The notes below the pieces were generated by a model. It was not told the origin of the DNA. It did no database searches and worked only from the letters and a program-made list of their open reading frames with translations. Below, piece by piece: positions 3,001-23,900 of a stretch of DNA of 33,082 nt. The position numbers and the translations under genes were made by a program. Each line of letters begins with the position of its first letter. Positions within the stretch are counted from its first letter, which is position 1. Source of the DNA: Sulfuricurvum sp. (GTDB taxonomy: Bacteria; Campylobacterota; Campylobacteria; Campylobacterales; Sulfurimonadaceae); assembly GCF_028710345.1 (NCBI RefSeq), contig NZ_JAQTUH010000004.1:1-33082 (forward strand), given 5' to 3'.

Positions 3001-3338
3001 TAATAAATGTCATCCGTCAATGTTATAGTTAATGTTTTAGCAACACTATCCGTATTGGTAAAGTTTTCTATAAACCGCCCAAATCCATTTCCGATATAAG
3101 CATCTCTACTCAATATAATCTTATTGGTAGCATCCGTTGCAGTGGTTGTGTTAGCATTAGCACTGGTCACTGTTGGCACCCAATCTCCGATTGCAAATGT
3201 GATAGGCGTAGTACCGCTTACGATGGAAAGCATCGCACCTGCATCATAGATATCACTAGGAGATTGAAGTCTAACCAGCTGACCATCCAAGCCGATTTGC
3301 CAATTATTTAAACTGCTATCTGTGTAACTTAAACTCAT
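1..3338 (-). CDS. Large RTX-type calcium-binding protein, 5' part (C-terminus off left edge)
   Basis: The frame is open from the ATG at 3338 to base 1, about 1112 codons without a stop. A TAAGG ribosome-binding site (3346-3350) lies 7 bases before the ATG. The first ~255 residues (start [20 protein letters not shown]) hold no RTX motifs, have no signal peptide and belong to no family I recognise. From about residue 258 onward the protein is made of calcium-binding nonapeptides of the GGxGNDxLx type, in blocks joined by segments such as [19 protein letters not shown] and [14 protein letters not shown]. One block type, with [16 protein letters not shown], occurs twice (about + 1540-1690 and 270-440). 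RTX proteins are normally exported by type I secretion through a C-terminal signal, which would be off the window; no transporter genes are seen here. Likely an extracellular or cell-surface protein; the specific role (adhesin, protective layer, enzyme carrier) cannot be told. Confidence 0.88.
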
Positions 3339-4405: not shown

Positions 4406-4424
4406 AAAAAAGAGGAGACTCCCC
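4406..4424 (-). terminator. Rho-independent terminator of ffs
   Basis: Read on the minus strand, GGGGA-GTC-TCCTC (4424-4412) makes a 5-bp stem (one G-U pair) followed directly by six Us (4411-4406). It sits at the 3' end of the SRP RNA gene, where a terminator is expected. Confidence 0.7.
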
Positions 4425-4522
4425 ATCAGATACCTGCGGCACAAAATCGGTTTAGGTGTGCTGCTGTATTCCTACCCTGACACGATGTCCAAACAAACCC
4501 TTGCACAGGTCTAATGAAGAGA
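4412..4522 (-). ncRNA. ffs: Signal recognition particle RNA (small bacterial type, 4.5S-like)
   Basis: The minus strand carries the universally conserved helix-8 signature of SRP RNA: GTCAGG, then a GTA-GGAA-TAC stem with a GGAA tetraloop, then AGCAGC (about 4485-4460). Flanking strands pair into the long hairpin expected of the Alu-less bacterial form: ACCTG near the 5' end with CAGGT near the 3' end, and GGTTT with AAACC further in. Ffh binds this hairpin to target nascent membrane proteins to FtsY and SecYEG. The 5' end is placed about 7 bases after the TACAAT -10 box (4534-4529), and the 3' end at the terminator stem. Exact mature ends cannot be told; 5' trimming is likely. No protein gene fits this stretch. 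Confidence 0.87.
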
Positions 4523-6332: not shown

Positions 6333-6997
6333 GTGGAACAAGCTCTGGAATCGGAGAAGCTATTGCTCAAATGCTACTCGATAATGGGTACAAAGTAATC
6401 GGTCTCTCTCGGAGCGAAGGGAGCTTAAATCACCCTAATTTTATTCACATCGCGTGTGATTTACGCCATATTCATGAGATCGAAGTGCTCAAAACATTAG
6501 AGTCCAACGATTTGAAATTACTCATCAACGCTGCCGGATTTGGACGGTTTGAACCCCACGAAGAGTTGAGCCTCTCTACTATCACCGATATGATTGCCCT
6601 CAATCTCACCGCCCCAATCGTCCTCTCAAACCTCTTTTTACGTACCCTCAAAGCCAATCAGGGGAAGATTATCAATATCACCTCTATCGAAGCAACCCGT
6701 AGTTCTAAATTTTCCGCCCTCTACAGCGCGACTAAATCAGGGTTGCGTGCGTTCGGGCATTCACTGTTCGAAGAGGTGAGAGCGAGCGGGGTCGGGGTTC
6801 TCACCATCAACCCCGATATGACCGATACGCCGTTTTTTGATGATTTGCGTTTTGGTGTCGGTGAAAGCGAAGAGAGTAAACTTTTCGCATCCGATATCGC
6901 CAAATCCCTCCTCAATCTCTTATCAATGCGCGATGGAATGTGTACTACCGAACTCACATTGAGACCACAACGGTTTGGGATTACCAAAAAACACTAA
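6314..6997 (+). CDS. SDR-family oxidoreductase
   Basis: This 227-residue protein is a classical short-chain dehydrogenase/reductase. It has the cofactor glycine motif GTSSGIG (residues 8-14), the NAAG motif (~73-76), a catalytic Ser in NITSIEA (~121), and the YSATKSG motif with catalytic Tyr and Lys (~135-139). SRSEG after the second strand, with a basic residue, suggests NADP(H) preference. The C-terminus is short compared with the usual 240-250 residues. An AAAGGA site precedes the ATG by 7 bases, and the start overlaps the SPL-like gene by 19 bases, so it is the third gene of that operon. The substrate cannot be told. The sigma-54 promoter for fliD begins right after its stop codon. Confidence 0.83.
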   Translation: MATAIVSGTSSGIGEAIAQMLLDNGYKVIGLSRSEGSLNHPNFIHIACDLRHIHEIEVLKTLESNDLKLLINAAGFGRFEPHEELSLSTITDMIALNLTAPIVLSNLFLRTLKANQGKIINITSIEATRSSKFSALYSATKSGLRAFGHSLFEEVRASGVGVLTINPDMTDTPFFDDLRFGVGESEESKLFASDIAKSLLNLLSMRDGMCTTELTLRPQRFGITKKH

Positions 6998-7014
6998 AGG
7001 AACTCTTTTTGCTT
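6998..7014 (+). promoter_or_regulatory. Sigma-54 promoter upstream of fliD
   Basis: AGGAACTCTTTTTGCTT has GG at 6999-7000 and GC at 7011-7012 with exactly 10 bases between, matching the GGAA...TTTGCTT form of RpoN promoters known from Campylobacter flagellar genes. Transcription would start near 7024. It begins one base after the SDR stop codon. Confidence 0.8.
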
Positions 7015-7038
7015 TTAGTATAACTGTAGAAAATTGAC

Positions 7039-7065
7039 TAATCTTTTAACCTTTTTGGTCGATAT
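7039..7065 (+). promoter_or_regulatory. Possible second, sigma-28-like promoter of fliD
   Basis: TAATCTTT, 11 bases, then GTCGATAT resembles the FliA consensus TAAAGTTT-N11-GCCGATAA at 12 of 16 positions with correct spacing. It lies 30 bases before the fliD ATG. The match is moderate; the sigma-54 element upstream is stronger. Confidence 0.4.
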
Positions 7066-7094
7066 TATCTACACTAAATGTAAAAGGATTTACT

Positions 7095-8753
7095 ATGGCA
7101 GTCAGTTCACTGGGAGCAGGATCGGGAGTACTTACTCAAACCGTTATTGATCAGCTTAAAGCTGCTGATACAAAATCTATCATTACCCCTATTGATAACA
7201 AAATTACTTTACAACAACAAAAAAGCAGTGCTATCAGTTTGCTAGACAGTCTACTTACCACATTTAAAAGCAGTGCCAGCGCACTAGACAATGATGCACT
7301 GTATCAAAAACGGACCGTATCGGGGAATACTAGCGGTGTGAGTGTTACCGCTAATTCTGGGGTTGACGTGCAATCTTTTTCGATTTCTAATGTCTCCTTA
7401 GCACAAAAAAATGTCTTAGAATCAGGAAGTTTTCTTTCCAATACTGCGAGCATCGCTTCGGGTTCAGGTACCATGAAAATGACAGTGGGAGGACTAAGCT
7501 ACAGCATTGATTATACATCAACAACATCCCTTACGGATCTCAAAAACTCAATCAATACTGTAGCGGGTTCGAGCGTAAGAGCCTCTATTTTACAAGTCGG
7601 AACTAATGACTACCGATTGGTTATGAATTCTCAAAAAACCGGTGCCGATCAAAATATTGTCATCTCTGATTCCTCAACGGGTACTCTTAATAATACATTA
7701 ACTTCTTATAAAGCTATTAGTTCCCAAGCTTTCTCCTCTCCCATCGATACGGTTGCTTCTGGAGCAGGTGATTTAACAGTGAGCGTAGGAGGCAGTAGCT
7801 ACAATGTCGCCTATGATGCATCTACCTCACTAGAAAATATTCGAGACCTTATTAATGCTTCTGTCGGCTCTTCGGTTGCCACTATCGATGGAAATAACAA
7901 ACTTATTTTACGTTCATCCGTAGCCGGAGATAGTGCTAGTGTCTCATTAACCGACAATTCAGGGCTTTTAGACTCTAAATTAACGACAACTACCGCTATG
8001 GATAAAATTGGGGAACTTCAAGCAGCAACCAATGCCCAATTTAAGTACAATGGGATTACCATCTCTCGTAGCAGTAATACCATCAGCGACCTAACCGTAG
8101 GGGTAACGATCAATCTTCTCGAAAATAGCGGAAGTGCTAATATCTCAATCGCTCAAGATACCCAAGCGATTAGTGACGAGATGAACACCTTTGTCCAAAA
8201 CTACAACTCGCTAACCTCACAGCTTAACAGTATGACAAGCTCCGACACTACAACCGGAACTGTCGGTATTTTTAGTGGTGACAACTCTATCAACTCTATC
8301 CGAAGAGAGATAAACCGTGTTGTAACTTCTATGAACAGTAGTGGTATGTCTCTCTCTCAATTTGGAATTGATTTAAGTGAAACAGGGACAATGAGCTTTA
8401 ATTCTTCCACATTTCTTTCCAAATTCAATACAGATACTACTGCCTCTGAGAAATTTTTAAGCGGGTATACCAAAGTTGACAGTTTAGGACATAGCACAAC
8501 AACCGATGGTATTTTTACCACTTTAAATACCATGCTAGACCGTTTTCATACAAACATGACCAATTTGACTACCAGTTCAACCAATCAAATCAAGTCACTT
8601 AATGACAATAAGACACGTTCTCAAGCATTGCTCGATGCACGTTATACCGCTATGACTGCTCAGTTCGTCCAATACGATACCATTATGACCAAATTAAAAA
8701 ATCAATTTGCATCCCTCCAAACACAAATCAGTGCATACACAACCGGTAATTAG
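7095..8753 (+). CDS. fliD: Flagellar filament cap protein FliD
   Basis: This 552-residue protein is FliD (HAP2), which forms the pentameric cap at the filament tip and guides flagellin folding during growth. The N-terminal FliD domain is clear: start AVSSLGAGSGVLTQTVIDQL, then LDSLLTTFKSSASAL and the TVSGNTSGVSVTANSGV segment. The C-terminal coiled region (about 470-552) includes ALLDARYTAMTAQFVQYDTIM, typical of the family end. The middle has two related domains, each with an SGTMKMTVGGLSYSIDY / AGDLTVSVGGSSYNVAY motif (~125-145 and ~220-240). No cysteine was seen. An AAAAGGA site lies 6 bases before the ATG, and a sigma-54 promoter lies upstream. No fliS or fliT follows, unlike many flagellar loci; the pseudaminic acid genes come next. 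Confidence 0.93.
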   Translation: MAVSSLGAGSGVLTQTVIDQLKAADTKSIITPIDNKITLQQQKSSAISLLDSLLTTFKSSASALDNDALYQKRTVSGNTSGVSVTANSGVDVQSFSISNVSLAQKNVLESGSFLSNTASIASGSGTMKMTVGGLSYSIDYTSTTSLTDLKNSINTVAGSSVRASILQVGTNDYRLVMNSQKTGADQNIVISDSSTGTLNNTLTSYKAISSQAFSSPIDTVASGAGDLTVSVGGSSYNVAYDASTSLENIRDLINASVGSSVATIDGNNKLILRSSVAGDSASVSLTDNSGLLDSKLTTTTAMDKIGELQAATNAQFKYNGITISRSSNTISDLTVGVTINLLENSGSANISIAQDTQAISDEMNTFVQNYNSLTSQLNSMTSSDTTTGTVGIFSGDNSINSIRREINRVVTSMNSSGMSLSQFGIDLSETGTMSFNSSTFLSKFNTDTTASEKFLSGYTKVDSLGHSTTTDGIFTTLNTMLDRFHTNMTNLTTSSTNQIKSLNDNKTRSQALLDARYTAMTAQFVQYDTIMTKLKNQFASLQTQISAYTTGN

Positions 8754-8763
8754 TCTGTATTAA

Positions 8764-9822
<1,059 letters not shown>

Positions 9823-9828
9823 CGTCTA

Positions 9829-10956
9829 ATGCTACCGTACTCTACTCAGTTTATCGAAGAAGATGATATATCTGCCGTCGTAGAAGTACTGCGCAGTTCC
9901 CATCTCACCCAAGGGGCTAAAGTTGAGGAGTTTGAATCGGCTATTGCCTCGTATGTCGGTGCCAAACATTGTATCTCCTTTAACTCTGCTACTTCGGCAT
10001 TACTAGCGGCTTACGCTGTTGGTGAGATCAAAGAGGATGATGAGATTATCACGACACCGATTAGCTTTGTGGCAACGTCAAATATGGCTATTGCACTGGG
10101 GGCTAATCCTAAATTCTGTGACATAAAAATGGATGGCAATATCGATGAGCATCTCATAGAATCACTCATCACACCCCATACAAAAGCGATTGTCCCCGTC
10201 GATTTTGCCGGTAAACCGGTGGCGATAAAAAAGATAAAAGAGATTGCTCAAAAACATAATCTTTTGGTCATCGAAGATTCTTCCCACGCTTTGGGGAGCG
10301 GTATCGGACATCAAAAAATAGGTTCTTTTGCCGACATGACGATCTTTAGTTTCCATGCTATCAAACCGATTACGACCGGAGAGGGGGGAGCAGTTGTCAC
10401 CGATAACGACGAGTTCGCACAACGGCTTCGTCTCTTTCGCTCACACGGCATCATCAAAAAACAGCTGTGGAATTCGGATATGGTGAGCTTGGGGCATAAT
10501 TTCCGTCTCACCGAATTTGCCGCCGCACTGGGGCTTTCACAACTCCATAAACTAAACCGTTTTCTTGAGACACGGGAGCATATTGCCCGCTATTATGATG
10601 AGCGTTTTTCGGAACACAAATTGTTCACGACAATCAGTATCGATTCATCTGAACAGAGTGCACGTCATCTTTATCCACTGTTACTCAATCCAGAGCTTCA
10701 TTGTGTTAAAGAGGAGATTTTTGCCGAATTGCAAACACGGGGGTTAGGGGTGCAAGTCCACTACAAACCCATCTATCAAAACAGTTTTTATAAAGAAAAA
10801 TTTGGAGAACAACGTCTCGCCACCACAGAGCTTTTTTATAAAAGTGAACTCTCCATCCCCTGCCATCAAAAGATGACGATGGAAGAGGCTGTAACGATTG
10901 CCGATACCGTTCTTGACGTGATAGAAAAATACAGTTACAGAGGATGCAGTTTCTAA
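9829..10956 (+). CDS. pseC: UDP-4-amino-4,6-dideoxy-N-acetyl-L-altrosamine transaminase, PseC
   Basis: Second pathway enzyme, a PLP-dependent sugar aminotransferase (DegT/DnrJ/EryC1 family) that adds the 4-amino group, with glutamate as donor, to the PseB product. Its 375 residues match the family. Visible motifs are FNSATSALLAA (~51-61, cofactor phosphate site), VIEDSSHALGS (~148-157, the Asp that contacts the PLP ring nitrogen) and Lys179 in SFHAIKPITTGEGG, the Schiff-base lysine. It starts 6 bases after pseB, and its TAA stop overlaps the ATG of pseF by one base. The pairing with PseB rather than a legionaminic-type dehydratase supports pseudaminic acid as the product. Confidence 0.93.
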   Translation: MLPYSTQFIEEDDISAVVEVLRSSHLTQGAKVEEFESAIASYVGAKHCISFNSATSALLAAYAVGEIKEDDEIITTPISFVATSNMAIALGANPKFCDIKMDGNIDEHLIESLITPHTKAIVPVDFAGKPVAIKKIKEIAQKHNLLVIEDSSHALGSGIGHQKIGSFADMTIFSFHAIKPITTGEGGAVVTDNDEFAQRLRLFRSHGIIKKQLWNSDMVSLGHNFRLTEFAAALGLSQLHKLNRFLETREHIARYYDERFSEHKLFTTISIDSSEQSARHLYPLLLNPELHCVKEEIFAELQTRGLGVQVHYKPIYQNSFYKEKFGEQRLATTELFYKSELSIPCHQKMTMEEAVTIADTVLDVIEKYSYRGCSF

Positions 10957-11642
10957 TGCGTATATGTATCATTCCAGCTCGTGGAGGAAGTAAACGGATA
11001 CCCCGAAAAAATATCAAACCGTTTCACGGCAAACCGATTATTGCCTATAGCATCGAAGCGGCATTGACTTCTTGCTTATTTGATAAAATTATCGTTACTA
11101 CCGATGATGAAGAGATTGCCGAAGTAGCACGTAAATTTGGTGCTGAAGTCCCTTTTATGCGACCTAAAGAACTCAGTGATGATCACACCGCTACCATCCC
11201 CGTTATCGCTCACGCTATCCAAACACTTCAAAACAATTCGGTTATCGATTATGCCTGCTGTATCTATGCCACAGCCCCATTTATCCGTGCTGAAGACATC
11301 CATAATGCCTATAACTCCCTTATCACCCATAACAAACAGTACGCTTTTCCTGTTACGACGTTCCCTTTCCCGATTCAGCGTGGTGTGAAACGAGATAATA
11401 AGGGTAATATCGACATGTTTTATCCTGAACATTTTGCAACACGCTCTCAAGATCTCGAAGAAGCGTATCACGATGTGGGGCAATTTTATTGGGGAACTCG
11501 TGAAGCATGGCTGGAGGGAAAACCGATTTTCTCCGATGCAGCCACGACAATCGTTCTACCCCGACATCTCGTCCAAGATATTGACACTCCAGAAGATTGG
11601 ATCCGAGCAGAATTGATGCATAAGGTACTCTTCAACACATGA
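10956..11642 (+). CDS. pseF: Pseudaminic acid cytidylyltransferase, PseF
   Basis: Last pathway step: it joins CMP from CTP to pseudaminic acid, giving the sugar donor for Maf. The 228-residue protein belongs to the CMP-NeuNAc synthetase family, with the nucleotide-binding N-terminus CIIPARGGSKRIPRKNI (residues ~4-20), IIVTTDDEEIA, and IDTPEDWIRAE near the end. I chose the ATG at 10956 (TAATG overlap with pseC) because the earlier in-frame ATG at 10944 abuts the GAGGA sequence with no spacing and adds the atypical residues MQFL. PseG follows with a 4-base ATGA overlap. Order pseC-pseF-pseG is common in Campylobacterota islands. Confidence 0.9.
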   Translation: MRICIIPARGGSKRIPRKNIKPFHGKPIIAYSIEAALTSCLFDKIIVTTDDEEIAEVARKFGAEVPFMRPKELSDDHTATIPVIAHAIQTLQNNSVIDYACCIYATAPFIRAEDIHNAYNSLITHNKQYAFPVTTFPFPIQRGVKRDNKGNIDMFYPEHFATRSQDLEEAYHDVGQFYWGTREAWLEGKPIFSDAATTIVLPRHLVQDIDTPEDWIRAELMHKVLFNT

Positions 11643-12511
11643 ATCTTCTTATTCGCGCAGATTCCTCTAGCACCATAGGGTTGGGACATATTATGCGCGA
11701 TTTGGTGCTCGCTCAACAATATCCTCATGCCCATATTACATTTGCTTGCCAAAATTTAGTGGGTAATATCATCGATAAAATCCCTTATCCTGTCCATATT
11801 CTCAGGACAAATGAGCCCGAAGAGCTGATTAATTCTATAACCTCATTAAAAATCAATATGGTTATTTTTGACCATTACGACATCGATTACTCTTTTGAAA
11901 AAAAGATTAAAGAGGCTACTCATATTACGATTATGAGCCTTGATGATACTTACAACTCACACTATTGTGATATTTTACTTAATCACAATATTTCTGCGGA
12001 CGAAAATCGCTATAAAGATTTGCTCCCTGTGCACTGTGAGCTTCATTGCGGAAAAGATTACACATTAATACGAGATGAATTCCGATCCGAAAAAGAAATT
12101 TCTCGAGAAAAAATTTATGATATTTTCATCTCAATGGGAGGGACAGATAGCAGTAATATAACACTTGATATACTAAAATCGATCCCTTGCTCCAAAAAAG
12201 TGTGTCTTGCTACTACAACCTCTAATCCAAATTTAAATACTTTATTAACATATACACTCAAATCAACTCAGATCAAAATTCATCTTAACTCCAATGAAAT
12301 TGCTAAACTCCTCCATCAAAGCCACTTAGCCATTATTACACCTAGTGTGATGGTTCATGAAGTACTGTTTATGGAAATGCCATTTATTGCGATTCAAACC
12401 GCATCCAATCAAGACGATATCGTTCAATACTTACATAAACATAATTTCTGTATACTTAATGAATTTGAAGCCACCCAATTTCAAAAACAACTTCAAAGGT
12501 TTTTGCCATGA
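11639..12511 (+). CDS. pseG: UDP-2,4-diacetamido-2,4,6-trideoxy-altropyranose hydrolase, PseG
   Basis: It removes UDP from the PseH product to release 2,4-diacetamido-2,4,6-trideoxy-L-altrose, the substrate of PseI. The 290-residue protein has the MurG-like GT-B fold, with the family motif IGLGHIMRDL holding His17, which matches the catalytic His17 described for Campylobacter jejuni PseG. ISMGGTDSSN (~165-174) is the UDP-binding glycine loop of the second domain. Length is typical of the family. It overlaps pseF by 4 bases. From this gene onward the DNA is visibly more AT-rich than pseB-pseF. Its stop overlaps a possible 13-codon coupling ORF that leads to pseI. Confidence 0.9.
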   Translation: MNLLIRADSSSTIGLGHIMRDLVLAQQYPHAHITFACQNLVGNIIDKIPYPVHILRTNEPEELINSITSLKINMVIFDHYDIDYSFEKKIKEATHITIMSLDDTYNSHYCDILLNHNISADENRYKDLLPVHCELHCGKDYTLIRDEFRSEKEISREKIYDIFISMGGTDSSNITLDILKSIPCSKKVCLATTTSNPNLNTLLTYTLKSTQIKIHLNSNEIAKLLHQSHLAIITPSVMVHEVLFMEMPFIAIQTASNQDDIVQYLHKHNFCILNEFEATQFQKQLQRFLP

Positions 12512-12549
12512 AATACTTTTTTAATTTTATAAATAAGAGTTATACATGA
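12508..12549 (+). other. 13-codon mini-ORF bridging pseG and pseI
   Basis: ATG at 12508 overlaps the pseG TGA (ATGA), and the mini-ORF TGA (12547-12549) overlaps the pseI ATG (12546) in the same way. It would encode MKYFFNFINKSYT. AAAGG lies 9 bases upstream. It fills the only sizeable gap in the operon and could pass ribosomes from pseG to pseI, or be chance in AT-rich DNA. Confidence 0.3.
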
Positions 12550-13553
12550 TTGAAATAATCGGTGAAATAGGGACGAATCATAACGGTGATATCCAAACAG
12601 CCTATCAACTGATAGATATAGCAGCGGAGAATGGATGTCATACCGTTAAATTACAAATATACGATGCCAACGATATTGTATCTTCACGTGTATCTCCTGT
12701 ACTTTATGGTTATCAAAATGATTATTCAACATGGGCTGAATATATTAATGCCAAGCTTATTACGCCTAAAGAATGGCTTCCTGAACTTGTCGCATATTCT
12801 CATAAAAAGAATCTTGATATTATCGCAACACCTCATAGTTTAAAAAATGCCATTATTTGCTTAAATGCAGGGATTAAGCGCTTAAAAATTGCCTCCATGG
12901 ATTGTAACCATATCCCGTTTATACATGAGTTATCCAAATTACAAGTACCTTTGTTGCTTTCAACGGGTATGGCTACTAGAGCTGAAATCATTGATGCATT
13001 TGAAACCATTAGTGCTTATCACTCTGATATAACCCTTTTTCATTGCGTTTCAACCTATCCAACACTTTATCCTGAAGTCAATCTTTCCTTTTTTGAATTT
13101 CTTAAAACTCTGACTTTAAATATCGCTCTCTCAGATCATAGTGAAAAAAATGATATAGCCATGATGAGCGTTGTGTACGGGATCAAAGCAGTCGAAAAAC
13201 ATATTACTCTTGATAAAAATCAACTTGGTCCAGATCACTCTTTTGCGCTAGATGCTCAAGGAATTCGTGACCTTTCAATGAGTTTACAAAATGCCCAAAT
13301 GGCTATGGGTACTCCTACAAAAATACTTTCCTCAAAAGAACAAAAAGGACGAACACTTTACAGACGTGTTATGATTGCAAACAAACCCCTCTCTATTGGG
13401 CATATCATCACCGAAAATGATTTCTATTTTGCACGGCCTGAAGCAGTTTTCAATGACACTATCCCGCCAAAAGAGGCTTCTTTATGGGTTGGATGGAGTG
13501 TTAAAATGCCCCTTGATGAGCACCAAGCTATTAGACGAGAACATTTTCAATGA
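12546..13553 (+). CDS. pseI: NeuB-family nonulosonic acid synthase, presumed pseudaminic acid synthase PseI
   Basis: Condenses a 6-carbon amino sugar with phosphoenolpyruvate to make a 9-carbon nonulosonate. The 335-residue protein has the NeuB barrel (IIGEIGTNHNGDIQTAYQLI at the N-terminus, LLSTGMATRAEI ~137-148, HCVSTYPTLYPE ~175-186, SDHSEKNDIAM, EKHITLDKNQLGPDH ~218-232) and the C-terminal antifreeze-like SAF domain (VMIANKPLSIGHIITENDF). It is the only such synthase in an operon with pseB, C, F, G and H, so PseI is the natural assignment. The sequence is not the textbook PseI: the usual AELSANH start reads GEIGTNH, and the STPF motif reads ATPHS. A legionaminate/NeuB-like origin or altered substrate is possible. 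Its stop overlaps the next gene by 4 bases. Confidence 0.75.
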   Translation: MIEIIGEIGTNHNGDIQTAYQLIDIAAENGCHTVKLQIYDANDIVSSRVSPVLYGYQNDYSTWAEYINAKLITPKEWLPELVAYSHKKNLDIIATPHSLKNAIICLNAGIKRLKIASMDCNHIPFIHELSKLQVPLLLSTGMATRAEIIDAFETISAYHSDITLFHCVSTYPTLYPEVNLSFFEFLKTLTLNIALSDHSEKNDIAMMSVVYGIKAVEKHITLDKNQLGPDHSFALDAQGIRDLSMSLQNAQMAMGTPTKILSSKEQKGRTLYRRVMIANKPLSIGHIITENDFYFARPEAVFNDTIPPKEASLWVGWSVKMPLDEHQAIRREHFQ

Positions 13554-14434
13554 GCCGCATTTTATTAAGTGCCGTAGGGGGATCGGTTGCCATCTCTATT
13601 ATTCGTCATCTTCAATCATTAGGGCATACAATTTTGGGAATGGACTCGAATAATGAATGTCCGGCACGCTATTTTGTTGATGAATTTTTTTGTTCTCCCT
13701 CTATTGAAAATGTAGATCAATATCTCTCTTTTATTGCGCACTTAAATTTTGATCTTTTTTTTCCTTGGCTTGATGAAGAGCATCGTTTATTCGCTACCGT
13801 AAAAATAGATCCGATATTACGTAAACGCATCGTTACCTCATCACCACTGAGTATTTTAACTGCTACAAGTAAACTCTCAACATATAACTTTGCTCAAACC
13901 CATAGAATCAGAGTTGCTGATTTAACACGCACTGCTCCTGCCTTTGTTCGAAAAGATTTTAGCAGAGGGAGTAAAGGTGCGTGGCTTGAATCATCACCTG
14001 AACTACTTGCTCAACTTGATCACTCATCTCATATTATTCAAACGCTTCTCATAGGGGATGAATTTACGGTCGATACTCTCTCTGATTGTAGTGGAAAACC
14101 CCTGTTTGCTCTGGCAAGGAAACGGATAAAGGCATCTAACGTCAGCCTCATCGGCGAGGTAGTAGATGAGCCCGAAATTATTGAAATTGCATTAAAACTA
14201 CTTGCCAATCTCCCAATTATTGGACCAGCGAATATCCAATTTATTAAAAATGAAGAAGGGATATTTCTAATTGAGATCAATCCCCGTATTGCAGGCAGTG
14301 CTATTTTATCGATACACGCTGGATTTGATCCATTAAACAGTTACATCAAAATTTTTCACAATGAAGGGTTTGAGCTACCTAAACCGAAATATGGTCTCAA
14401 AATGTATCGTTATTTGACGGAGCATTATGTCTAA
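13550..14434 (+). CDS. ATP-grasp carboxylate-amine ligase-like protein
   Basis: This 294-residue protein has the layout of carbamoyl-phosphate-synthase-like ATP-grasp enzymes: an N-terminal pre-ATP-grasp domain (RILLSAVGGSVAISIIRHL), a phosphate-binding loop VRKDFSRGSKGAW (residues 133-145), the GDEFTVDTL motif (169-177), and the metal-binding EINPR (242-246). The family activates a carboxylate with ATP and couples it to an amine, often an amino acid. Placed directly after the nonulosonate synthase (ATGA overlap) and before a HAD phosphatase, it may attach an amino or acyl acid to a free amine of the sugar, or act on the sugar carboxylate; this is inference from context. Its substrate is unknown. 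It overlaps the next gene by 8 bases. Confidence 0.78.
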   Translation: MSRILLSAVGGSVAISIIRHLQSLGHTILGMDSNNECPARYFVDEFFCSPSIENVDQYLSFIAHLNFDLFFPWLDEEHRLFATVKIDPILRKRIVTSSPLSILTATSKLSTYNFAQTHRIRVADLTRTAPAFVRKDFSRGSKGAWLESSPELLAQLDHSSHIIQTLLIGDEFTVDTLSDCSGKPLFALARKRIKASNVSLIGEVVDEPEIIEIALKLLANLPIIGPANIQFIKNEEGIFLIEINPRIAGSAILSIHAGFDPLNSYIKIFHNEGFELPKPKYGLKMYRYLTEHYV

Positions 14435-15017
14435 TCTAGCTACCATGCTTACAGAATATGATACTGTACTATTTGATCTTGATGGTACACTTTTTTCACA
14501 AATTGACTATGACTATAGAGTTTTTACCTCTTTTTTTAAGGATCATACGATTGCAATGATGTTGGCAAATTTTAAAGCATCTTTGGGTTATGCCCATCCG
14601 AATGTTTTTGATTTATTTGCTGTCCAACATTCAGAAATCGATTTTTCTGTACAAGAGTTACTATCTTTTTATCGTACTTATCTACCTGATTTATCCGATT
14701 TGAAAACTTTATCGCCATTACTGTCACAACTTTGTGAAAAAAGAAAAATTCTCATCTCTAATGGAGGTGAAATAAAACAATGGCATAAAATAAGATCTTT
14801 GAATCTTGAAAGTTTTTTTGAAACAATCATTATCTTAGACCCCCATCGTAATGATCTTCTAAAACCATCTCCTCAATCTTTTCTCACCCTTGAACCTTTT
14901 CCTGCTAAAGCAGTAATGGTTGGAGATCAAGAATCTACAGATGGAGTTTTTGCTTCTAATTGTCATATACCATTTATCTTTTTCCAATTTCCATCCGATA
15001 TTACCTCAAAGGAATAA
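14427..15017 (+). CDS. HAD-superfamily hydrolase
   Basis: This 196-residue protein has all HAD motifs: the nucleophile motif FDLDGTLF (Asp17, Asp19), motif II Ser in ILISNGG (~112), motif III Lys in LLKPSP (~148), and the acidic motif IV VGDQESTDG (~170). An alpha-helical cap lies between motifs I and II (subclass IA-like). Most relatives are phosphatases of small molecules. In other nonulosonate pathways a HAD enzyme removes the 9-phosphate, but the pseudaminic route needs no such step, so a phosphate-bearing intermediate of the extra cassette is the likelier substrate (inference). The ATG at 14427 overlaps the ATP-grasp gene; an in-frame ATG at 14445 is an alternative. Confidence 0.8.
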   Translation: MSNLATMLTEYDTVLFDLDGTLFSQIDYDYRVFTSFFKDHTIAMMLANFKASLGYAHPNVFDLFAVQHSEIDFSVQELLSFYRTYLPDLSDLKTLSPLLSQLCEKRKILISNGGEIKQWHKIRSLNLESFFETIIILDPHRNDLLKPSPQSFLTLEPFPAKAVMVGDQESTDGVFASNCHIPFIFFQFPSDITSKE

Positions 15018-15019
15018 TT

Positions 15020-16252
15020 ATGCATTGCCCACACTGTTCATCAGCGAGTAATAAAGTTTTTTTTACACGCTCTATACCGATTTATCCGTTTACTGTCTCT
15101 CCCGAAACTGCTCTCACAATGCCAAATGAGCTCACACAAGTTATAGAACTGAATTACCTTTATTGTTCTCAGTGTGGGTTAGTATACAGTCATCTCCGCC
15201 CTCAAGATCATGAATTACTCAATACCATCTATGAAAAATTCTATTTTTATATCTCTCGAACCAATATCATTGACTATGAATTATCATCATTTTTGGATGT
15301 AACAGCTCAATGGATCAATCATAAATCTACCGTTGCTGAAATAGGGTGTTATGATGGGTCACTATTAGCACTTATACGTGAACGTTTCGATATTTCTAAT
15401 CTGATAGGCATTGAACCTTCCCGCAAGGGTGGAGAGACGGCTAGAGAACGTGGAATTACAGTAATCACTGATTTTTTTCCGACCAATCAACTCGTCACGA
15501 AATGCGATACGATTATTTCCAGACACGTTATTGAACACATCAGTGATATCAAAACTTTTTTAGTCAGTCAGTTTAAGGCGATTAGTGATGATGGGATAGT
15601 AATTTGTGAAACACCCAATGTAGATTGGGCGCTTATACACGGAAGTGATAAACCTTTTCATTTTCAACATATCACCCTTTTGACAAAGCAATATTTTTTA
15701 ACTCTCCTCAAAGAGATCGGTGTTAAGTTTGTATCTATTATAGAGCTTGATTATCGAATTATCGTTGCAGCATCTCATATCCCCCATACCAAAATGGTTC
15801 CGATCGAAACAGTTATCCAAGATAATAATCTTTTTATTTCCCATCTAACCTCTTTTCAAAATCGTGTTGATACCCATTTTTTAAGAGTTAAAAACCTATT
15901 AGATCAGATCAATGGTTCAGTCGCTATATGGGGTGCAGGAAGCTTTGGTGGGAATATTGTAGCCAATTTACCTCTTAATTTACTCCAAAAAATTGATTAT
16001 ATTATTGATTCTGACACGTCGAAAGAAGGGTATAAGTTTTTATTCTTTGATATCTTAGTTTCATCCCCTCACGTTCTCATTAACAATGATATTACACATA
16101 TCTTAATTATGTCAACCTATGAAAAAGAAATTTTTGAAGTAATACAGCAAATTTCGCCCTCTCAATCTATTATGATTGTAACCATGTATACCGATGTTGT
16201 TTTATATCAATACCATCCGGATAGCAAACAAATTATTAGAGTTTCTCAATGA
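15020..16252 (+). CDS. Zinc-ribbon SAM-dependent methyltransferase with C-terminal nucleotide-binding-like domain
   Basis: This 410-residue protein begins with a zinc-ribbon, CPHC (Cys3, Cys6) and CSQCG (Cys49, Cys52), followed by a class I methyltransferase domain with SAM motif VAEIGCYDGSLL (~105-116) and acidic IGIEPSRKGG, then a Rossmann-like C-terminal domain with AIWGAGSFGGNI (~301-312). This three-part order is that of TylC3-type sugar C-methyltransferases and of relatives in polysaccharide loci. In this operon it probably methylates the nonulosonate, a precursor, or an acyl group added to it; position and acceptor (C, N or O) cannot be read from sequence. The ATG at 15020 is chosen for its AAGGA site; an in-frame ATG at 14960 lies inside the HAD gene. 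ATGA overlap with the next gene. Confidence 0.8.
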   Translation: MHCPHCSSASNKVFFTRSIPIYPFTVSPETALTMPNELTQVIELNYLYCSQCGLVYSHLRPQDHELLNTIYEKFYFYISRTNIIDYELSSFLDVTAQWINHKSTVAEIGCYDGSLLALIRERFDISNLIGIEPSRKGGETARERGITVITDFFPTNQLVTKCDTIISRHVIEHISDIKTFLVSQFKAISDDGIVICETPNVDWALIHGSDKPFHFQHITLLTKQYFLTLLKEIGVKFVSIIELDYRIIVAASHIPHTKMVPIETVIQDNNLFISHLTSFQNRVDTHFLRVKNLLDQINGSVAIWGAGSFGGNIVANLPLNLLQKIDYIIDSDTSKEGYKFLFFDILVSSPHVLINNDITHILIMSTYEKEIFEVIQQISPSQSIMIVTMYTDVVLYQYHPDSKQIIRVSQ

Positions 16253-16926
16253 AGCGTATTTTAATTGTTGCAGCACACCCTGATGATGAAGTACTTGGTT
16301 GCTTCGGAACTGTCGCACGCCTCATCTCAGAAGGTTACGAAGCTTATACCCTCATCCTAGGGGAAGGAATCACCAGTAGAGCGGATAAACGTAACCCAAA
16401 ATTGCATCAAGAAGCACTCGAAACATTGCACCGCAATATCCATGAAGCCAATAATTCTATCGGAATAAAAAAGGTATTTATAGAAAACTTTCCGGATAAC
16501 CGTTTTGACAGTGTTGATTTATTAGACATTATCAAAGTAATTACCTCCATAAAAGAAGAGATACAACCGCAAATTATATTTACCCATTATCCGCATGATC
16601 TTAATATTGACCATCAAATCACCTATCAAGCTGTCTTAACCGCAACCCGTCCTATGAGTAATGAATGCGTCAGAGAGATCTATGCTTTTGAAGTTCTATC
16701 ATCCACTGAATGGAATTACCCTCTCTCTTTTTCTCCTGATTTGTATTATGATATTACTAATACTCTGCCATTAAAAGTCAAAGCTATGGAACATTATCAT
16801 GGAGAACTTCGAGATTTTCCCCATCCTAGAAGTCTTGAAGGGATTGAACTGGTTGCTACTTACTGGGGAATGCGTACTGGAATTTCCAAGGCTGAAGCTT
16901 TTAAAACCGTCCGTATGCTTCGATGA
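16249..16926 (+). CDS. PIG-L/LmbE-family N-deacetylase
   Basis: This 225-residue protein shows the PIG-L signature AAHPDDEVLG, with zinc ligands His10 and Asp13 and the catalytic-base candidate Asp12, and the second motif HYPHDLNIDH (113-122), whose His122 completes the zinc site. The family removes N-acetyl groups from amino sugars (GlcNAc-PI, mycothiol and bacillithiol precursors). Here it could free an amine on pseudaminic acid or an intermediate so that the ATP-grasp enzyme, the methyltransferase or another acyltransferase can modify it. It is coupled to the methyltransferase gene and to pseH by 4-base ATGA overlaps at both ends. The assignment to sugar tailoring is from context. Confidence 0.85.
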   Translation: MKRILIVAAHPDDEVLGCFGTVARLISEGYEAYTLILGEGITSRADKRNPKLHQEALETLHRNIHEANNSIGIKKVFIENFPDNRFDSVDLLDIIKVITSIKEEIQPQIIFTHYPHDLNIDHQITYQAVLTATRPMSNECVREIYAFEVLSSTEWNYPLSFSPDLYYDITNTLPLKVKAMEHYHGELRDFPHPRSLEGIELVATYWGMRTGISKAEAFKTVRMLR

Positions 16927-17384
16927 GTATGATTAATTTTACACATCTTACACTACAACAAAAAGAGGATGTATTATTATGGCGGAATCATCCAAATGTC
17001 AGAAAATGGATGTTACATTCTGATCCAATCACGCTCCAAGAACATCTGCTTTTTATTAATACACTTCAAAATGCCCCTACAAAACAATATTTTTTAATTG
17101 AAGACTATGGAGTTATCTATTTTTCAGAGATTGATTTTGAACAAAAAAATGCTTATTTTGGACTTTATGCAAACCCCTATTCTACTGTAACAGGAAAAGG
17201 GAAGATATTGATGGAATCAATTTTAGCTTATGCTATTAATCATTTGCAACTTGATACTTTAAAGCTAGAAGTTTTTGCAAACAATTTTAATGCAATACGT
17301 TTATATCAACAATTTTCTTTCGTTGAAATTGAGCGTATTCATACGAATAATAATAATTTGCTCGTTATGAAACATACTTTTTAG
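16923..17384 (+). CDS. pseH: UDP-4-amino-4,6-dideoxy-N-acetyl-altrosamine N-acetyltransferase, PseH
   Basis: Third pathway step: it acetylates the 4-amino group made by PseC, using acetyl-CoA. The 153-residue protein is a GNAT acetyltransferase with the PseH-like N-terminus DVLLWRNHPNVRKWML, the core GLYANP...TGKGKILME (the Q/RxxGxG/A-type CoA site, ~88-105), and LEVFANNFNAIRLYQQFSF (~118-136), the usual GNAT end. It is the last gene of the operon, away from pseG, although the reaction belongs between PseC and PseG. ATGA overlap with the deacetylase gene; a second in-frame ATG lies two codons on. Its last 20 bases overlap the 3' end of maf, which is read from the opposite strand. Confidence 0.85.
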   Translation: MSMINFTHLTLQQKEDVLLWRNHPNVRKWMLHSDPITLQEHLLFINTLQNAPTKQYFLIEDYGVIYFSEIDFEQKNAYFGLYANPYSTVTGKGKILMESILAYAINHLQLDTLKLEVFANNFNAIRLYQQFSFVEIERIHTNNNNLLVMKHTF

Positions 17385-19302
17385 ACATCTCAATTATCTC
17401 TTTAAATTTATCCTCGTTTTCCCACATTAACACACCTTTGGAAACTCTAATAAGGGTACTTTGAATCGATCCAGCCATCGAAAATAACCAAAATTTATGG
17501 GCATAAATCCAATCAATCAGTTTGATTTTTCTCTCTAAATCATCTTCTACATTACGCACCATAATCGTTGCTAATTCAATCTCTTGATGAAGCATCAATG
17601 GCATCATAACCGTACCAAAAAGTTTATCAAAACGTTCATCTTCAAACAATTCTTTTATTGCATCAATTTTTTTATTCAATCCAAGCAAAAGGTCAAAATC
17701 AATCTCGTCCAATTTCTCTTCATTTTTGAGTTTTTCAATCTTTTCCAATTCCTCAACTGTCTCCAAAAAGACCTTTTCACACTCGCTTTTTACACGTTCA
17801 CCATGCTCAAAAAAATCTTTGATTGTAGAGATAGTTAAACCAATTGCTTTGTTACAGATTTCATCATTCGGAGTATTTAGTTTTATCCGTGCTTTTTTAA
17901 ATGTTGTATCAACAAATTCTGAAAGAAATGTCTCAAAAGGGATCTCAATTGCCCCTTCAATACGTGCACCCCCTTCAGTAGCATTGTACGCGATAAAGCG
18001 ACCTGCATCATTCATTTGCGCTATAGAGATTTCAAAATAGTTTTTAAACATCTGCCATACAAGTGTCGTTCTTACTTCGCCATCTCCCCCGTACGCTGTT
18101 GTATAGAGATCAGATTCTTTTTGTTTTACTTCATCATCTCCAAATATATGCCCTTTAGCGTGCGATAATCCATCTTTGGCATACGCCAAATCTTGACCAA
18201 TTAATACTATCTTATCAAAACCCGATAAGGCGGCAAATTCAAATGCCATATTTGCAGCACTCATACCGGAACCAATATAACCCCATTCATGGTGTTCAAA
18301 ACCTGTCAAATATCCAAAAGGTCTCATGCTAAGCTGTAATGTCCCTCCGACAATATTCTCTATTAACTCTTGATGTGCAATAGATGAAATCATAAAATTA
18401 ACACCTTTAAAAGCACTTTTCGGCGTTTTTTTATAAAATGATGCTGTTGCAGATACCCGCTCAATCGAAAAAACCATATCAGGCTTAATTTTATGTGCTA
18501 CTAATATAGGAAAACTTGCATCCAATGATAAAATAGTAATATGTTGTTGATATTTTTTTAGCAAAGGGAGTTGTTTTGCTAACGATGGACCTGTTGAGAC
18601 AATGACTGCGATTGAACTATTTTTTCCCTTTTTAACCGCTTCGTACAAAGTAGGACCATGAATCATTCGAGGCAAATTTCGTATATGATGTTCCACCCCT
18701 ATCAGCGAGTCTACAACATCATTACCAATCGCATATGCCAAATGTTTTAAACTATCCACTACCAAGGTATTAATTCGCGATATATCATCAAAATATTTTT
18801 CATAAAATCCAAATGGTATTAAGAGATTATATACTTTTGCATACAATTTGGCCGTACCGCTAAAAATAACATTGACCATACGATCAAACGTCATATCTTC
18901 ACTCAGTTCAACCCGAAATCTCCGTTCCATAATCTCTTGACTAAAATCAATCATATTGAGAACAATATAGATAATCTCTAATTCCGGTTCGAAAATGACT
19001 AAACGTTGATGTACCGGGTTTTGCAGCAACATTTTATACAGTATACCATTCCCTAAACCAAAAAAATAGAGATAAGGATAACGTTGATAGTTTATACAAT
19101 CTTTATAGGCAAGCTCTGTTTCTTCAATAGGTTTACCACAATAAATTGGTGTTAAATCATTTTTAGAAATAATATTAATATTGGCGGGATCACTATCAAC
19201 ATAAACCTCAAAAGAGTTATTTTCACGTAATTCAAATATTTTTGCCGTCAAAAGAGGATCAACACTGAGCAGTGCTTCCAAATTGCGTTGTAAAATATCC
19301 AT
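17365..19302 (-). CDS. maf: Motility-associated factor (Maf) glycosyltransferase
   Basis: This 645-residue protein belongs to the Maf family (MptE-like/DUF115 core), thought to transfer pseudaminic or legionaminic acid from its CMP form to Ser/Thr of flagellin in the cytoplasm before export. The N-terminal domain includes YPYLYFFGLGNGILYKMLL (~75-93). The central domain has the family landmarks IAVIVSTGPSLAKQLPLL (~230-247), LSLDASFPILVAHKIKPDM, and SAANMAFEFAALSGF followed by LIGQDLAYAKDGLSHAKGH (~360-390). A charged, partly coiled C-terminal region follows. AAAGGA lies 5 bases before the ATG. It sits 121 bases downstream of the flagellin gene, its probable substrate, on the same strand. Confidence 0.92.
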   Translation of the reverse strand: MDILQRNLEALLSVDPLLTAKIFELRENNSFEVYVDSDPANINIISKNDLTPIYCGKPIEETELAYKDCINYQRYPYLYFFGLGNGILYKMLLQNPVHQRLVIFEPELEIIYIVLNMIDFSQEIMERRFRVELSEDMTFDRMVNVIFSGTAKLYAKVYNLLIPFGFYEKYFDDISRINTLVVDSLKHLAYAIGNDVVDSLIGVEHHIRNLPRMIHGPTLYEAVKKGKNSSIAVIVSTGPSLAKQLPLLKKYQQHITILSLDASFPILVAHKIKPDMVFSIERVSATASFYKKTPKSAFKGVNFMISSIAHQELIENIVGGTLQLSMRPFGYLTGFEHHEWGYIGSGMSAANMAFEFAALSGFDKIVLIGQDLAYAKDGLSHAKGHIFGDDEVKQKESDLYTTAYGGDGEVRTTLVWQMFKNYFEISIAQMNDAGRFIAYNATEGGARIEGAIEIPFETFLSEFVDTTFKKARIKLNTPNDEICNKAIGLTISTIKDFFEHGERVKSECEKVFLETVEELEKIEKLKNEEKLDEIDFDLLLGLNKKIDAIKELFEDERFDKLFGTVMMPLMLHQEIELATIMVRNVEDDLERKIKLIDWIYAHKFWLFSMAGSIQSTLIRVSKGVLMWENEDKFKEIIEMSKKYVS

Positions 19303-20921: not shown

Positions 20922-23900
20922 TCATCCGTAGATGAAATCTGCTGCAGTAATATTCGAAGATGTTACCCCTGTAAGTGTAATCGTATCTCCACTTGCAAGA
21001 GTTATTAATGTATCAGCACCGGCGTTAGCTGAAGCAATCGTTGCATACGTGTCAATATCACCCACTGCTATTGCAGTACCAGCTACTTTACCAGTCACAG
21101 TTATCGCAATTTTGTCTGACGCATCTGTAAAGTCGCTAATCGTATCATTTCCATTGGTTGGCGCATTAGCGTATACAAAAATATCAGCACCACCATTACC
21201 GGTAAGAATATCATTCCCTAGAGAACTGTAGAATTTATCCGCACCGGCACCACCGGTCATCGTTATTGCTCGGCTTGATATACCATCATCCATTGCTTTA
21301 GCATTAATAATCACGCTATTAGTCCCTGTAAGAGCATGTCCATCAACCGTATTTATTCCTGCTGAAAATGCCAATGTTCCTAACGTGATTGATTGCGCTG
21401 CAAAATCCCCAAGAACTATTTTTTCTACTCCACTTACATGGGTCAAATCAGCATCGAGTACGGTTGCCGCATCACTAAAGACCATACTGTCTGTCCCTCC
21501 GTTACCGGTAATGGTATCAGTGCTTGTCAAGTGAATATTTTTCATTGTAAAGGTATCGTTTCCGCTACCTCCAATCATTGTCATAGTACTATCGGTTGTC
21601 ATTGCATTGGTTATGGATGATGCAGCGGTACTTGCGCTCATATCGATTTTGGTAATTCCTGCTGTTTTTGCTAGGTTACCCACGGTCACAGCTTGAGCAC
21701 CTGTCCCTAATAGGGTAAGCGTCTCTACTCCTGTCACTTTTGTAAATTGTGCATCTGCTATAGTCGCCGCAGCATCTCCAATTTTAATCGTATCAGACCC
21801 CGCACCCGCTGTTACTGTATCAGTAGCGCTTAAATCTGCCGCATTAAATTTGAAGCTATCATCTCCCGCTCCGCCAAGCACTGCCATATCATTCGTTGTC
21901 GTACCGCTAAGATCATACGTGACACCGGATGCAGATAACGATCCATCAACGGTTCTAATTCCAGCTGCTACCCCTAAAGTTCCTACCGTAATATTTTGCC
22001 CTGCAAAATTACCTAATTTGATACTTTCAACACCACTCACCAAAGTAAAATCAGCATCAATGACCGTAGCCGCATCACTAAAGACAATTTTATCAGCAAT
22101 ACCGCCTGCTGCTGTAATAGTATCCGCAGCGGTAAAGTCAGCGGCTTTAAGAGTAAACGTATCATTCCCTGCCCCTCCAATAAGTGTCAAGACAGACGCA
22201 CCCATACCGCTTACATTCATGCTCACGGCATTTGTTCCGCTAAGGACACTACCATCTACTTTATTAATACCTGCTGCTGTTGCAGCCGTTCCCAGTGTAA
22301 TACTTTGTGTACCGAAATTTGCAAGTTGAAGTACTTCTACACCGCTTGAGAGGGCAAAATCGGTATCAATTACCGTTGCCACATCACTAAAGATGATTGT
22401 GTCCGCTGTTCCTGCACCACCTACAACGCTATCTAAAGAGTCAAAAAAGGCACTTTTTAGTTTAAACGTATCGCTTGCTGCTCCACCTTTAAGTAAAAGG
22501 GCTGCTGCTGTCATCGAGAGGGTATCGATCGTTACTGCATTTGTCCCAGTAAGAAGTGACCCGTCTACCGTTCGAATACCTGCTGTGGTTGCTAATGTTC
22601 CCAACGTTACCACTTGTGATGCAAAATCCCCCAATTTAAGAGTCTCTAAACCAGTTACTTTAGTAAATTGAGCATCTGTTTGTGTAAGTGCCGTTGCCGC
22701 TGTACCCAATACAAGGGTATCACTACCCAATCCACCAGTAAGTGTATCAGTAGCTGAAAAGTCTGCTACATTAAAGGTAAAGGTATCTGCTCCCGCGCCC
22801 CCAATTAATGTAACATTATTGATTGTTGTTCCACGTACATCCATAGCAACACCATTAGATGCAGTTGTTAATGATGCATCCACTTTTTTAAGTCCTGCTG
22901 TCATAGCGTTGGTACCCAATGTCACACTTTGACTTCCAAAGTCACCGAGCTTAATCCCATCTAACAGTGTGAAATTTGTACCAAACATACTATCCACTAC
23001 TGTAGCCGCATCCGCAATTTGGATGGTATCAACCCCCGCACTTCCGGTAAAGGTATCGGCGGATGTTAAATGCCCATTATTAACTTTAAGGGTTGCTGCA
23101 CCACCCCCTATAACCGTAAATGTAGCATTTGTCGACATCCCAGAAATATCAACCAATATCGTATTGGTTGTCGTTGTCACAGCAGATGCATCGACTTTCA
23201 CAACTCCTGCCGTAGATGCAGCATTGCCTAATGCCAATGATTGCCCTGAAAAGTTGCCCAGTTTAATCGCTTCCACTCCAGTAACATGAGCAAAATCAGT
23301 ATCTATGACCGTTGCCGCATCACTAAAGACGATCGTATCCGCTGTTCCAGCATTGCCGGTAATAGTATCAGCATTGGTCAAGTGGATATTTTTCATAGTA
23401 AACGTATCATTACCCGCTCCTCCAATCATTGTCATAGTGGTATCGGTTACCATCGCATTTGTAATTGAAGCACTGCTACTTAAATGAGCATCAATTGTTG
23501 TGAGACCTGCTGTATTGGCCACACTACCGATACTAACCGTTTGCGCCCCTATTCCTGCAAGTTGAAGTATTTCTACCCCTGTGATTTTAGTAAAGAGAGC
23601 ATCAGTGACCGTTGCCGTAGCATTCGCAATTTGCAGTGTATCACTACCACCATTACCCGCTATAACATCGGTTGCAGAGATATCGGCAAGATTAGCTTTA
23701 AAAGTATCAGCACCTGAACCTCCAAGTAATGTGATGTTATTCGTTACTGTCCCTCTTGCATCCAATGTCACGCTATACGTCGAAGCAGTTGCATCCACTT
23801 TTTTGAGTCCTGCATTCATAGCATTCACACCCAGTGTCACACTTTGACCTGTAAAATCACCCAATTTGATCACATCGAGTCTAGTATAACTTGTATCAAA

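Follow-up and report, generated by a model that had tools for sequence, protein, structure and literature searches.

A four-gene cassette within a flagellar pseudaminic acid operon of Sulfuricurvum sp., predicted to exchange an N-acyl group

Introduction

N-acyl variants of pseudaminic acid (Pse) and legionaminic acid (Leg) are common, few of their genes are known, and knowledge of the enzymes has been called scarce (PMC6388019; this and the other papers cited are used from the portions of text available). Here we describe a pse operon from Sulfuricurvum sp. (contig NZ_JAQTUH010000004.1, positions 1 to 33,082; this 33,082-nt stretch is referred to as the window), in which genes for an ATP-grasp ligase, a HAD phosphatase, an S-adenosylmethionine (SAM) methyltransferase and a PIG-L deacetylase are located between a NeuB-family synthase gene and pseH. 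These four genes probably form an N-acyl exchange module of the Pse pathway, with glycerate as the likely acid to be ligated. We regard the locus as a genuine variant of nonulosonate biosynthesis, and as an informative one.

The closest parallel in layout comes from Neisseria. There, PglB acetylates its sugar, and the ATP-grasp/phosphoglycosyltransferase PglB2 produces a glyceramido sugar instead (PMC11130364, PMC6959607); the region directly downstream of pglB2 is labelled ‘HAD’ in the methods of one study (PMC10948894). According to the available text pglB2 moves together with ORF8, which presumably is this HAD-family gene. In Neisseria an ATP-grasp enzyme is thus found where a sister pathway uses an acetyltransferase, the acid ending on an amine of a diamino-trideoxyhexose, as is predicted for the window; by the label just cited, a HAD gene adjoins the ATP-grasp gene in both (a comparison of descriptions; PglB2 was not aligned). 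In contrast to the window enzyme, PglB2 includes a fused phosphoglycosyltransferase and belongs to a pilin glycan pathway, and the available descriptions mention no deacetylase, methyltransferase or nonulosonate synthase. In the window pseH is retained, and a PIG-L gene is present in addition.

For flagellar Pse of Campylobacter jejuni, loss of the N5 acetyl group and its replacement with 2,3-di-O-methylglyceroyl have been proposed (Cj1295; PMC3068675); this form of Pse gives an oxonium ion at 391. The window would share with this system a flagellar Pse and a proposed N5 acetyl exchange. The Cj1295 system differs in its proposed deacylase, which is aminopeptidase-like, and its available description names no ligase; a Pfam scan of ten window operon proteins revealed no aminopeptidase-like deacylase. 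Tannerella forsythia makes the N-glyceroyl Pse Pse5Am7Gra, the glyceroyl gene of which has been called elusive (PMC6120980, PMC6388019); this system differs in that the glyceroyl group is at C7 and the sugar belongs to an S-layer glycan. N-glyceroyl Pse (Pse5Am7Gra) and the N5-(2,3-di-O-methylglyceroyl) Pse of C. jejuni flagellin are, by these accounts, known products.

In Shewanella oneidensis, NeuB-family, methyltransferase and ATP-grasp genes of sfmABCDE are needed for normal flagellin modification, and the flagellin glycan comprises a monoacetyl nonulosonate (274 Da) and an O-methylated extra moiety (PMC3765264). The sfm set differs from the window in its five genes, which include a thiamine pyrophosphate (TPP) enzyme and a ketoreductase, and the available text describes no PIG-L or HAD among them. 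The ten window operon proteins scanned include no TPP-dependent enzyme or ketoreductase, PseB being a short-chain dehydrogenase-type dehydratase and not of the SfmC type. The flagellin glycan of Treponema denticola reportedly is Pse-configured and carries one N-acetyl and one O-methylated polyhydroxyacyl group. Its mass is 450.2 Da (PMC9481697).

Within the open-access literature, the nearest published systems are Shewanella sfm and Clostridioides difficile type B. An ATP-grasp/PIG-L set in pse clusters was not described in titles or abstracts of that literature; subscription journals were mostly outside the search. The parts belong to known families; no account of their combination, of the rule for PIG-L and acetyltransferases or of the separate synthase clade presented below turned up there.

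Results

The cassette and its operon

The pse operon with the cassette spans 8815-17384 on the + strand, and genes for Maf and flagellin adjoin it on the - strand. The gene order on the + strand is fliD, pseB, pseC, pseF, pseG, NeuB-family synthase, ATP-grasp, HAD, methyltransferase, PIG-L, pseH:

7095..8753, + strand: FliD, flagellar hook-associated protein 2 (FliD_C 129 bits, FliD_N 47 bits)
8815..9822, + strand: pseB, UDP-N-acetylglucosamine (UDP-GlcNAc) 4,6-dehydratase (inverting); TIGR03589 563 bits, cut-off 408; alternative TTG start at 8800
9829..10956, + strand: pseC, aminotransferase; TIGR03588 477 bits, cut-off 424
10959..11642, + strand: pseF, CMP-pseudaminic acid synthetase; TIGR03584 348 bits, cut-off 206; longer form from 10944
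11639..12511, + strand: pseG, UDP-sugar hydrolase; TIGR03590 225 bits, cut-off 154
12546..13553, + strand: NeuB-family nonulosonate synthase, judged not to be PseI; PF03102 185 bits, SAF
13550..14434, + strand: ATP-grasp carboxylate-amine ligase, predicted sugar N-acyl ligase; ATPgrasp_Ter 64.5 bits
14427..15017, + strand: HAD phosphatase, predicted to release the acid for the ligase; HAD_2 (PF13419) 40.9 bits, motifs
15020..16252, + strand: SAM methyltransferase with N-terminal Cys pairs and a C-terminal domain; Methyltransf_23 56.7 bits; ATG start, longer form from TTG at 14960
16249..16926, + strand: PIG-L/LmbE-type N-deacetylase; PF02585 87.9 bits, HPDDE at residue 10
16923..17384, + strand: pseH, N4-acetyltransferase; TIGR03585 142 bits, cut-off 93
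17365..19302, - strand: Maf flagellin glycosyltransferase, convergent with the operon; PF01973 128 bits, PF20157 28 bits
19424..20845, - strand: flagellin, named from sequence alone; similar open reading frames (ORFs) in loci L035 and L170

PseB, PseC, PseF, PseG and PseH thus all pass the curated cut-offs of their TIGR models. A first-pass annotation of this DNA had placed four inserted tailoring genes at 13550-16926, among them a deacetylase that might expose an amine and a ligase that might cap it, and had assigned them to the flagellum. Four + strand ORFs occupy these positions, Pfam supports each family name, and families and motifs agree with such a set; FliD upstream and Maf and flagellin downstream support the flagellar setting. 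The junctions had been described as 2-base gaps or ATGA-type overlaps. A 2-base gap is present between the HAD and methyltransferase genes, and ATGA overlaps join synthase to ATP-grasp, methyltransferase to PIG-L and PIG-L to pseH; the ATP-grasp/HAD junction is an 8-base overlap, not of the ATGA type.

The HAD motifs DLDGT, SNG, KPSP and GDQESTD and the HPDDE motif of PIG-L are intact, and the methyltransferase contains Cys 3, 6, 49 and 52; we take these to be catalytic or zinc motifs. The G+C content is 0.43-0.44 in pseB, pseC and pseF versus 0.29-0.39 from pseG to maf (11639-19302). The lower value fits a later arrival of this part but is no proof of it.

A divergent synthase

Judged by score and phylogeny, the synthase is not PseI, as it had first been labelled, and belongs to a separate synthase clade. 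It reaches 182 bits on the PseI model (cut-off 340) and 227 bits on the NeuB model (TIGR03569, NeuB_NnaB; cut-off 400), below the cut-off in both cases. It is the sole NeuB-family match in its genome, and a PseI search of that genome at E 1e-90 gave no match. Among 200 related genomes, 116 have a PseI above the cut-off, and the closest synthase listed shares at most 35% identity with that of the window. A protein search (best 120 of 1034 matches) revealed 24 close relatives at 45-79% identity, followed by proteins at 36% or less. Together with the window protein these form one clade of 25, apart from a solved PseI (SH-aLRT branch support 100, stem 1.55; all synthase trees are quick trees supported by SH-aLRT alone). 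Some clade members and members of the ATP-grasp and methyltransferase families lie on contigs of equal size (5459, 7071, 7705 and 13388 bases); thus the three genes appear to travel together, as far as equality of size alone indicates a shared contig. A weak relative (28% identity) was found on one viral contig (L117).

A catalytic Glu-to-Asp exchange was rejected as a mark of the window clade, since Asp also occurs in 22 of 95 other listed NeuB proteins (a count by simple pattern, which 28 of the 95 do not match).

Recurrence of the cassette

A contig scan yielded 51 loci, six of which contain ATP-grasp, HAD, PIG-L and methyltransferase genes together with a synthase. Genes were catalogued for L032-L040, L044, L046, L047 and L055; for the rest of the 51, similarity matches only were used. 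The six full sets are:

L032, Colwellia: full set; a contig end cuts the methyltransferase
L034, Cellvibrionaceae: full set; HAD match split across two overlapping frames
L035, Alteromonadaceae: full set; flagellin-like ORFs adjoin
L036, an alphaproteobacterium: full set
L037, a gammaproteobacterium: full set
L038, Desulfobacula: full set

The cassette therefore recurs with pse genes in Gammaproteobacteria, one alphaproteobacterium and Desulfobacula, and the presence of the same genes beside pse genes in other classes indicates that the set is more than chance. In all six the HAD gene adjoins the ligase gene. Flagellin-like or Maf-like genes are found near the full or partial sets L035, L034 and L170. 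Of five cassette synthases scored, four (L034, L035, L037, L038) pass the PseI cut-off with 389-427 bits; that of L036 misses it (299). All cassette synthases but that of L036 group in a single clade (SH-aLRT 99), from which 31 other distinct PseI rows, mainly from the order of L035, stand apart; the window synthase lies in its own clade, separate from this one. In the order of L035, the cassette PseI scores lowest of 33 PseI (79 genomes).

The first-pass annotation had proposed a neighbourhood search for the four genes in relatives. Among the 200 related genomes no close ATP-grasp gene was found (best 71.5 bits, 29% identity; 1.5 kb was examined on each side of the ATP-grasp loci, except for loci extended later), and full sets with pse genes were met in other classes instead. 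One relative (G188, locus L118) does have ATP-grasp, HAD and PIG-L, but in a legionaminic acid cluster and with a different methyltransferase: this cluster (L118 3611-14461; G188 is of the window's order) contains PIG-L, ATP-grasp, HAD and a TylF-like methyltransferase. Cassette-type ATP-grasp is scarce, being found in six of 397 genomes of the phylum at E 1e-15 (window genome included) and in five of 295 genomes of the order of G501 at 1e-20 (G501 included). A tblastn search with the ATP-grasp protein at E 1e-8 gave three plasmid records and no phage record.

Some genes accompany these sets. In L036 the cassette is directly followed by a gene for an HpcH/HpaI-type aldolase (6677-7660), a possible source of the acid used by the ligase. 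A class-III aminotransferase adjoins or is fused with a cytidylyltransferase in L032 (5823-8249), L033 (4774-7654), L037 (1906-3975) and L118 (3611-5655), accompanied in L032 and L033 by an aldo/keto reductase.

The ATP-grasp/HAD pair, PIG-L and acetyltransferases

The ATP-grasp/HAD pair is more widespread than the full cassette, and the two genes are a mobile pair. It occurs without PIG-L in the Pse loci L119 (together with a PseI above the cut-off), L165, L166, L170 and L172-L175 and in the Leg-type loci L044, L046 and L047. None of these 11 nonulosonate loci has a PseH/LegH-like acetyltransferase within its run of sugar genes, defined as the unbroken series around the pair (in L166, pseB and pseC lie outside the run examined). 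The search used similarity, Pfam on selected genes, and profiles and queries from the GNAT and hexapeptide proteins of the cassettes; ORFs flanking the runs were scanned in part. By contrast, all 10 loci with PIG-L (window, L032, L034-L038, L055, L118, L169) have an acetyltransferase. It is of the GNAT type in eight (window, L032, L034-L038, L055), fused to PseG in six of them; the Leg loci L118 and L169 have a hexapeptide-type enzyme. Outside this tally stand L033 (GNAT present; the contig ends before a PIG-L would be visible), L167 (contig end), L039-L042, L171, L176 and L177 (no nonulosonate synthase in the stretch), and L045, L053, L120 and L168 (PIG-L, weak ATP-grasp match).

We propose a testable rule from these gene contents: the ATP-grasp/HAD pair would stand in for PseH/LegH, and PIG-L would appear where the acetyltransferase stays. 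Loci L172-L175 (G115, G104, G102 and G109, from the family of the window) were examined after this rule was set down, and all four fit it. There FliD precedes pseB, pseC, pseF, pseG, ATP-grasp, HAD and pseI, the order of which varies, and the run contains neither PseH nor PIG-L. A PseH above the cut-off is absent from all seven genomes checked that lack a cluster PIG-L (G451, G538, G507, G115, G104, G102, G109). Of the 116 PseI-bearing relatives, 34 have no PseH match at 1e-15, and the genomes of L172-L175 are all among these 34 and none among the 82 with PseH. In the ATP-grasp tree, 15 rows with PIG-L and 14 without are separated by 2 changes, versus 9.9 in shuffles.

The idea that the pair acts without nonulosonates in Pelagibacter (L039, L040) was rejected, as a NeuB gene is present on the same contig in both genomes. 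Three further stretches (L171 6141-9574, L176 9165-12456, L177 8003-11252; one of them on a Priestia plasmid) show adjoining aminotransferase, sugar transferase, ATP-grasp and HAD genes, a split PglB2-like layout. They also hold dehydratase genes, and their proteins are related to those of the window (in L171, the two proteins of the pair show 26% and 25% identity).

Models of the cassette proteins

The predicted model of the ATP-grasp protein (model confidence, pLDDT, 94.7) is nearest to 2pn1 and to the ligase PylC, with amino-acid ligases and PurK close behind. The HAD protein gives weak PDB matches to N-acylneuraminate-9-phosphatase (E 0.002-0.003). The model of the methyltransferase has the full-length three-domain fold of keto-sugar C-methyltransferases, at 17-18% sequence identity to the sugar 3-C-methyltransferases MtmC, TcaB9 and KijD1; a Pfam search at E 0.001 gave no PF08421 and no PF08484 match. 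Relative to TcaB9 (sequence alignment via KijD1 only; catalytic residues listed from PDB mutant titles), His225 is kept, Glu224 is replaced by Gln and Tyr222 by His. Given this fold, N-methylation is not favoured, and O- and C-methylation are both possible.

Other features of the window

A repetitive ORF of 4025 residues (20922-32999, - strand), perhaps a surface or secreted protein, adjoins the flagellin gene. An ORF of 1112 residues (3-3338, - strand) runs past the left edge and contains imperfect 27-base repeats at 640-692 and 1309-1368. A bacterial small signal recognition particle RNA is located at 4420-4517 (- strand, 57.9 bits).

Discussion

The order of the genes, their families, motifs and folds, the recurrence of the set and the PIG-L/acetyltransferase pattern in the loci examined lead us to infer a set of reactions, an acid, a position and an order of steps. 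PseB, PseC and PseH would yield the 2,4-diacetamido sugar, with the second amine kept acetylated. PIG-L would then remove the acetyl group that derives from GlcNAc and expose its amine; the HAD enzyme would free an acid from its phosphate (likely glycerate from phosphoglycerate), the ATP-grasp ligase would attach this carboxylic acid to that amine, and methylation of the product by the methyltransferase would follow. The exchanged group would come to lie at N5, on a carbon map in which C2 of the hexose becomes C5 of the nonulosonate. By calculation, a glyceroyl group in place of acetyl would raise the residue mass from the 316 Da of Pse5Ac7Ac to 362 Da, or to 376 and 390 Da with one and two methyl groups. 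The non-PseI synthase would condense the altered hexose with phosphoenolpyruvate, PseF would activate the product and Maf would load it onto flagellin. Where PseH is lacking, the ligase could take the amine made by PseC; where PseH is present, PIG-L would have to uncover the other one. Glycerate is the likely acid because the ATP-grasp enzyme PglB2 of Neisseria makes a glyceroyl-bearing sugar. It is also conceivable, at clearly lower confidence, that a second kind of synthase and its own acyl-exchange cassette build an undescribed flagellar nonulosonic acid, the acyl swap (and perhaps addition of a methyl branch) taking place on the hexose before condensation; it would then be the sugar backbone itself that is tailored, and not a completed CMP-Pse.

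Several observations weigh against acyl exchange as described or against the rule on which it draws. The synthase of L036, which has a long branch, does not fall within the cassette clade. PseI proteins of full length score 388-431 bits in genomes related to that of the window that showed no cassette (the loci themselves were not inspected), which weakens the use of low scores on the PseI model to recognise the cassette. L055 shows no HAD gene. In L167, PIG-L lies at the end of a contig, and no acetyltransferase was seen in the 12 kb examined. In L047, a GNAT ORF (1314-1883, 65 bits) is present some 1 kb before the sugar genes of the run. It was missed by the GNAT profile, which is thus not exhaustive; acetyltransferases farther out may exist. 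In the other cassettes the GNATs score below the PseH cut-off (30.9 and 32.6 bits, two scored), so that it is unsure which amine each enzyme serves. Only one of eight other genomes compared has a PseH above the cut-off, and the absence of PseH alone therefore says little; the PIG-L genomes other than that of the window also lack such a PseH because their GNATs diverge. Thirty of the 34 PseH-less PseI-bearing relatives are not among the L172-L175 genomes, although one of these 30 (G143) has an ATP-grasp gene next to that for PseI (L021). The pair therefore represents, at best, one way of coping with the lack of PseH. Finally, a keto-sugar C-methyltransferase fold fits an O-methylated glyceroyl group poorly.

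We consider it unlikely that C-methylation comes first, the 4-keto sugar of PseB being methylated next to the ketone to give a branched nonulosonate while the other three genes adjust acyl groups: PseC is canonical (477 bits), yet the branched sugar would have to be its substrate, the methyltransferase that accompanies the ATP-grasp/HAD pair in L118 belongs by Pfam name to an O-methyltransferase family (TylF-like), and the window protein does not match the two Pfam end domains of the C-methyltransferase family. Somewhat more doubtful is an aminoacyl cap, in which the ligase adds an amino acid (e.g. glutamate or alanine) and the methyltransferase N-methylates it, as in Leg5GluNMe7Ac of Clostridium botulinum. 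This sugar is flagellar, a PtmH-type methyltransferase is thought to be involved in its synthesis (PMC13317340), and the folds closest to that of the ATP-grasp protein include PylC and L-amino-acid ligases. An aminoacyl cap leaves the HAD gene, next to the ligase in every full cassette, without a role; the methyltransferase model resembles sugar C-methyltransferases from end to end, and the PglB2 layout is closer. The first-pass annotation had foreseen a nonulosonate modified by amine exposure and capping, for example with an aminoacyl or N-methyl group. Exposure followed by capping still stands as a prediction, with the cap now likely to be a hydroxy acid (glycerate): the pair appears to replace PseH/LegH elsewhere and resembles the PglB2 layout, both of which favour a hydroxy acid. 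N-methylation is disfavoured by the C-methyltransferase fold.

Two further explanations detach part or all of the cassette from acyl exchange. That it serves another glycan (lipopolysaccharide or capsule) and stands in this operon by chance is very improbable. PIG-L and ATP-grasp genes do occur in other sugar-gene stretches, e.g. L039-L042, but in the window the genes overlap between synthase and pseH, with FliD before them and genes for Maf and flagellin after them, this operon holds the sole NeuB-family match of the genome, and flagellin-like or Maf-like genes are found near L035, L034 and L170 as well. Hardly credible, too, is a 9-phosphate route, in which the synthase uses a 6-phosphate, the HAD protein dephosphorylates the product as an N-acylneuraminate-9-phosphatase and the ligase acts elsewhere. 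The weak HAD matches to that phosphatase and the higher score of the synthase on NeuB than on PseI agree with such a route. PseB yields a 6-deoxy sugar, however, and there is therefore no C6 hydroxyl to bear a phosphate; moreover, the pair occurs with an above-cut-off PseI (L119) and in a sugar-transferase stretch without a synthase (L171).

If the rule for PIG-L and the acetyltransferase is true, the order of genes in flagellar loci could reveal glycan chemistry across several phyla, and these enzymes would be useful for making N-acyl variants of bacterial sialic acid-like sugars.

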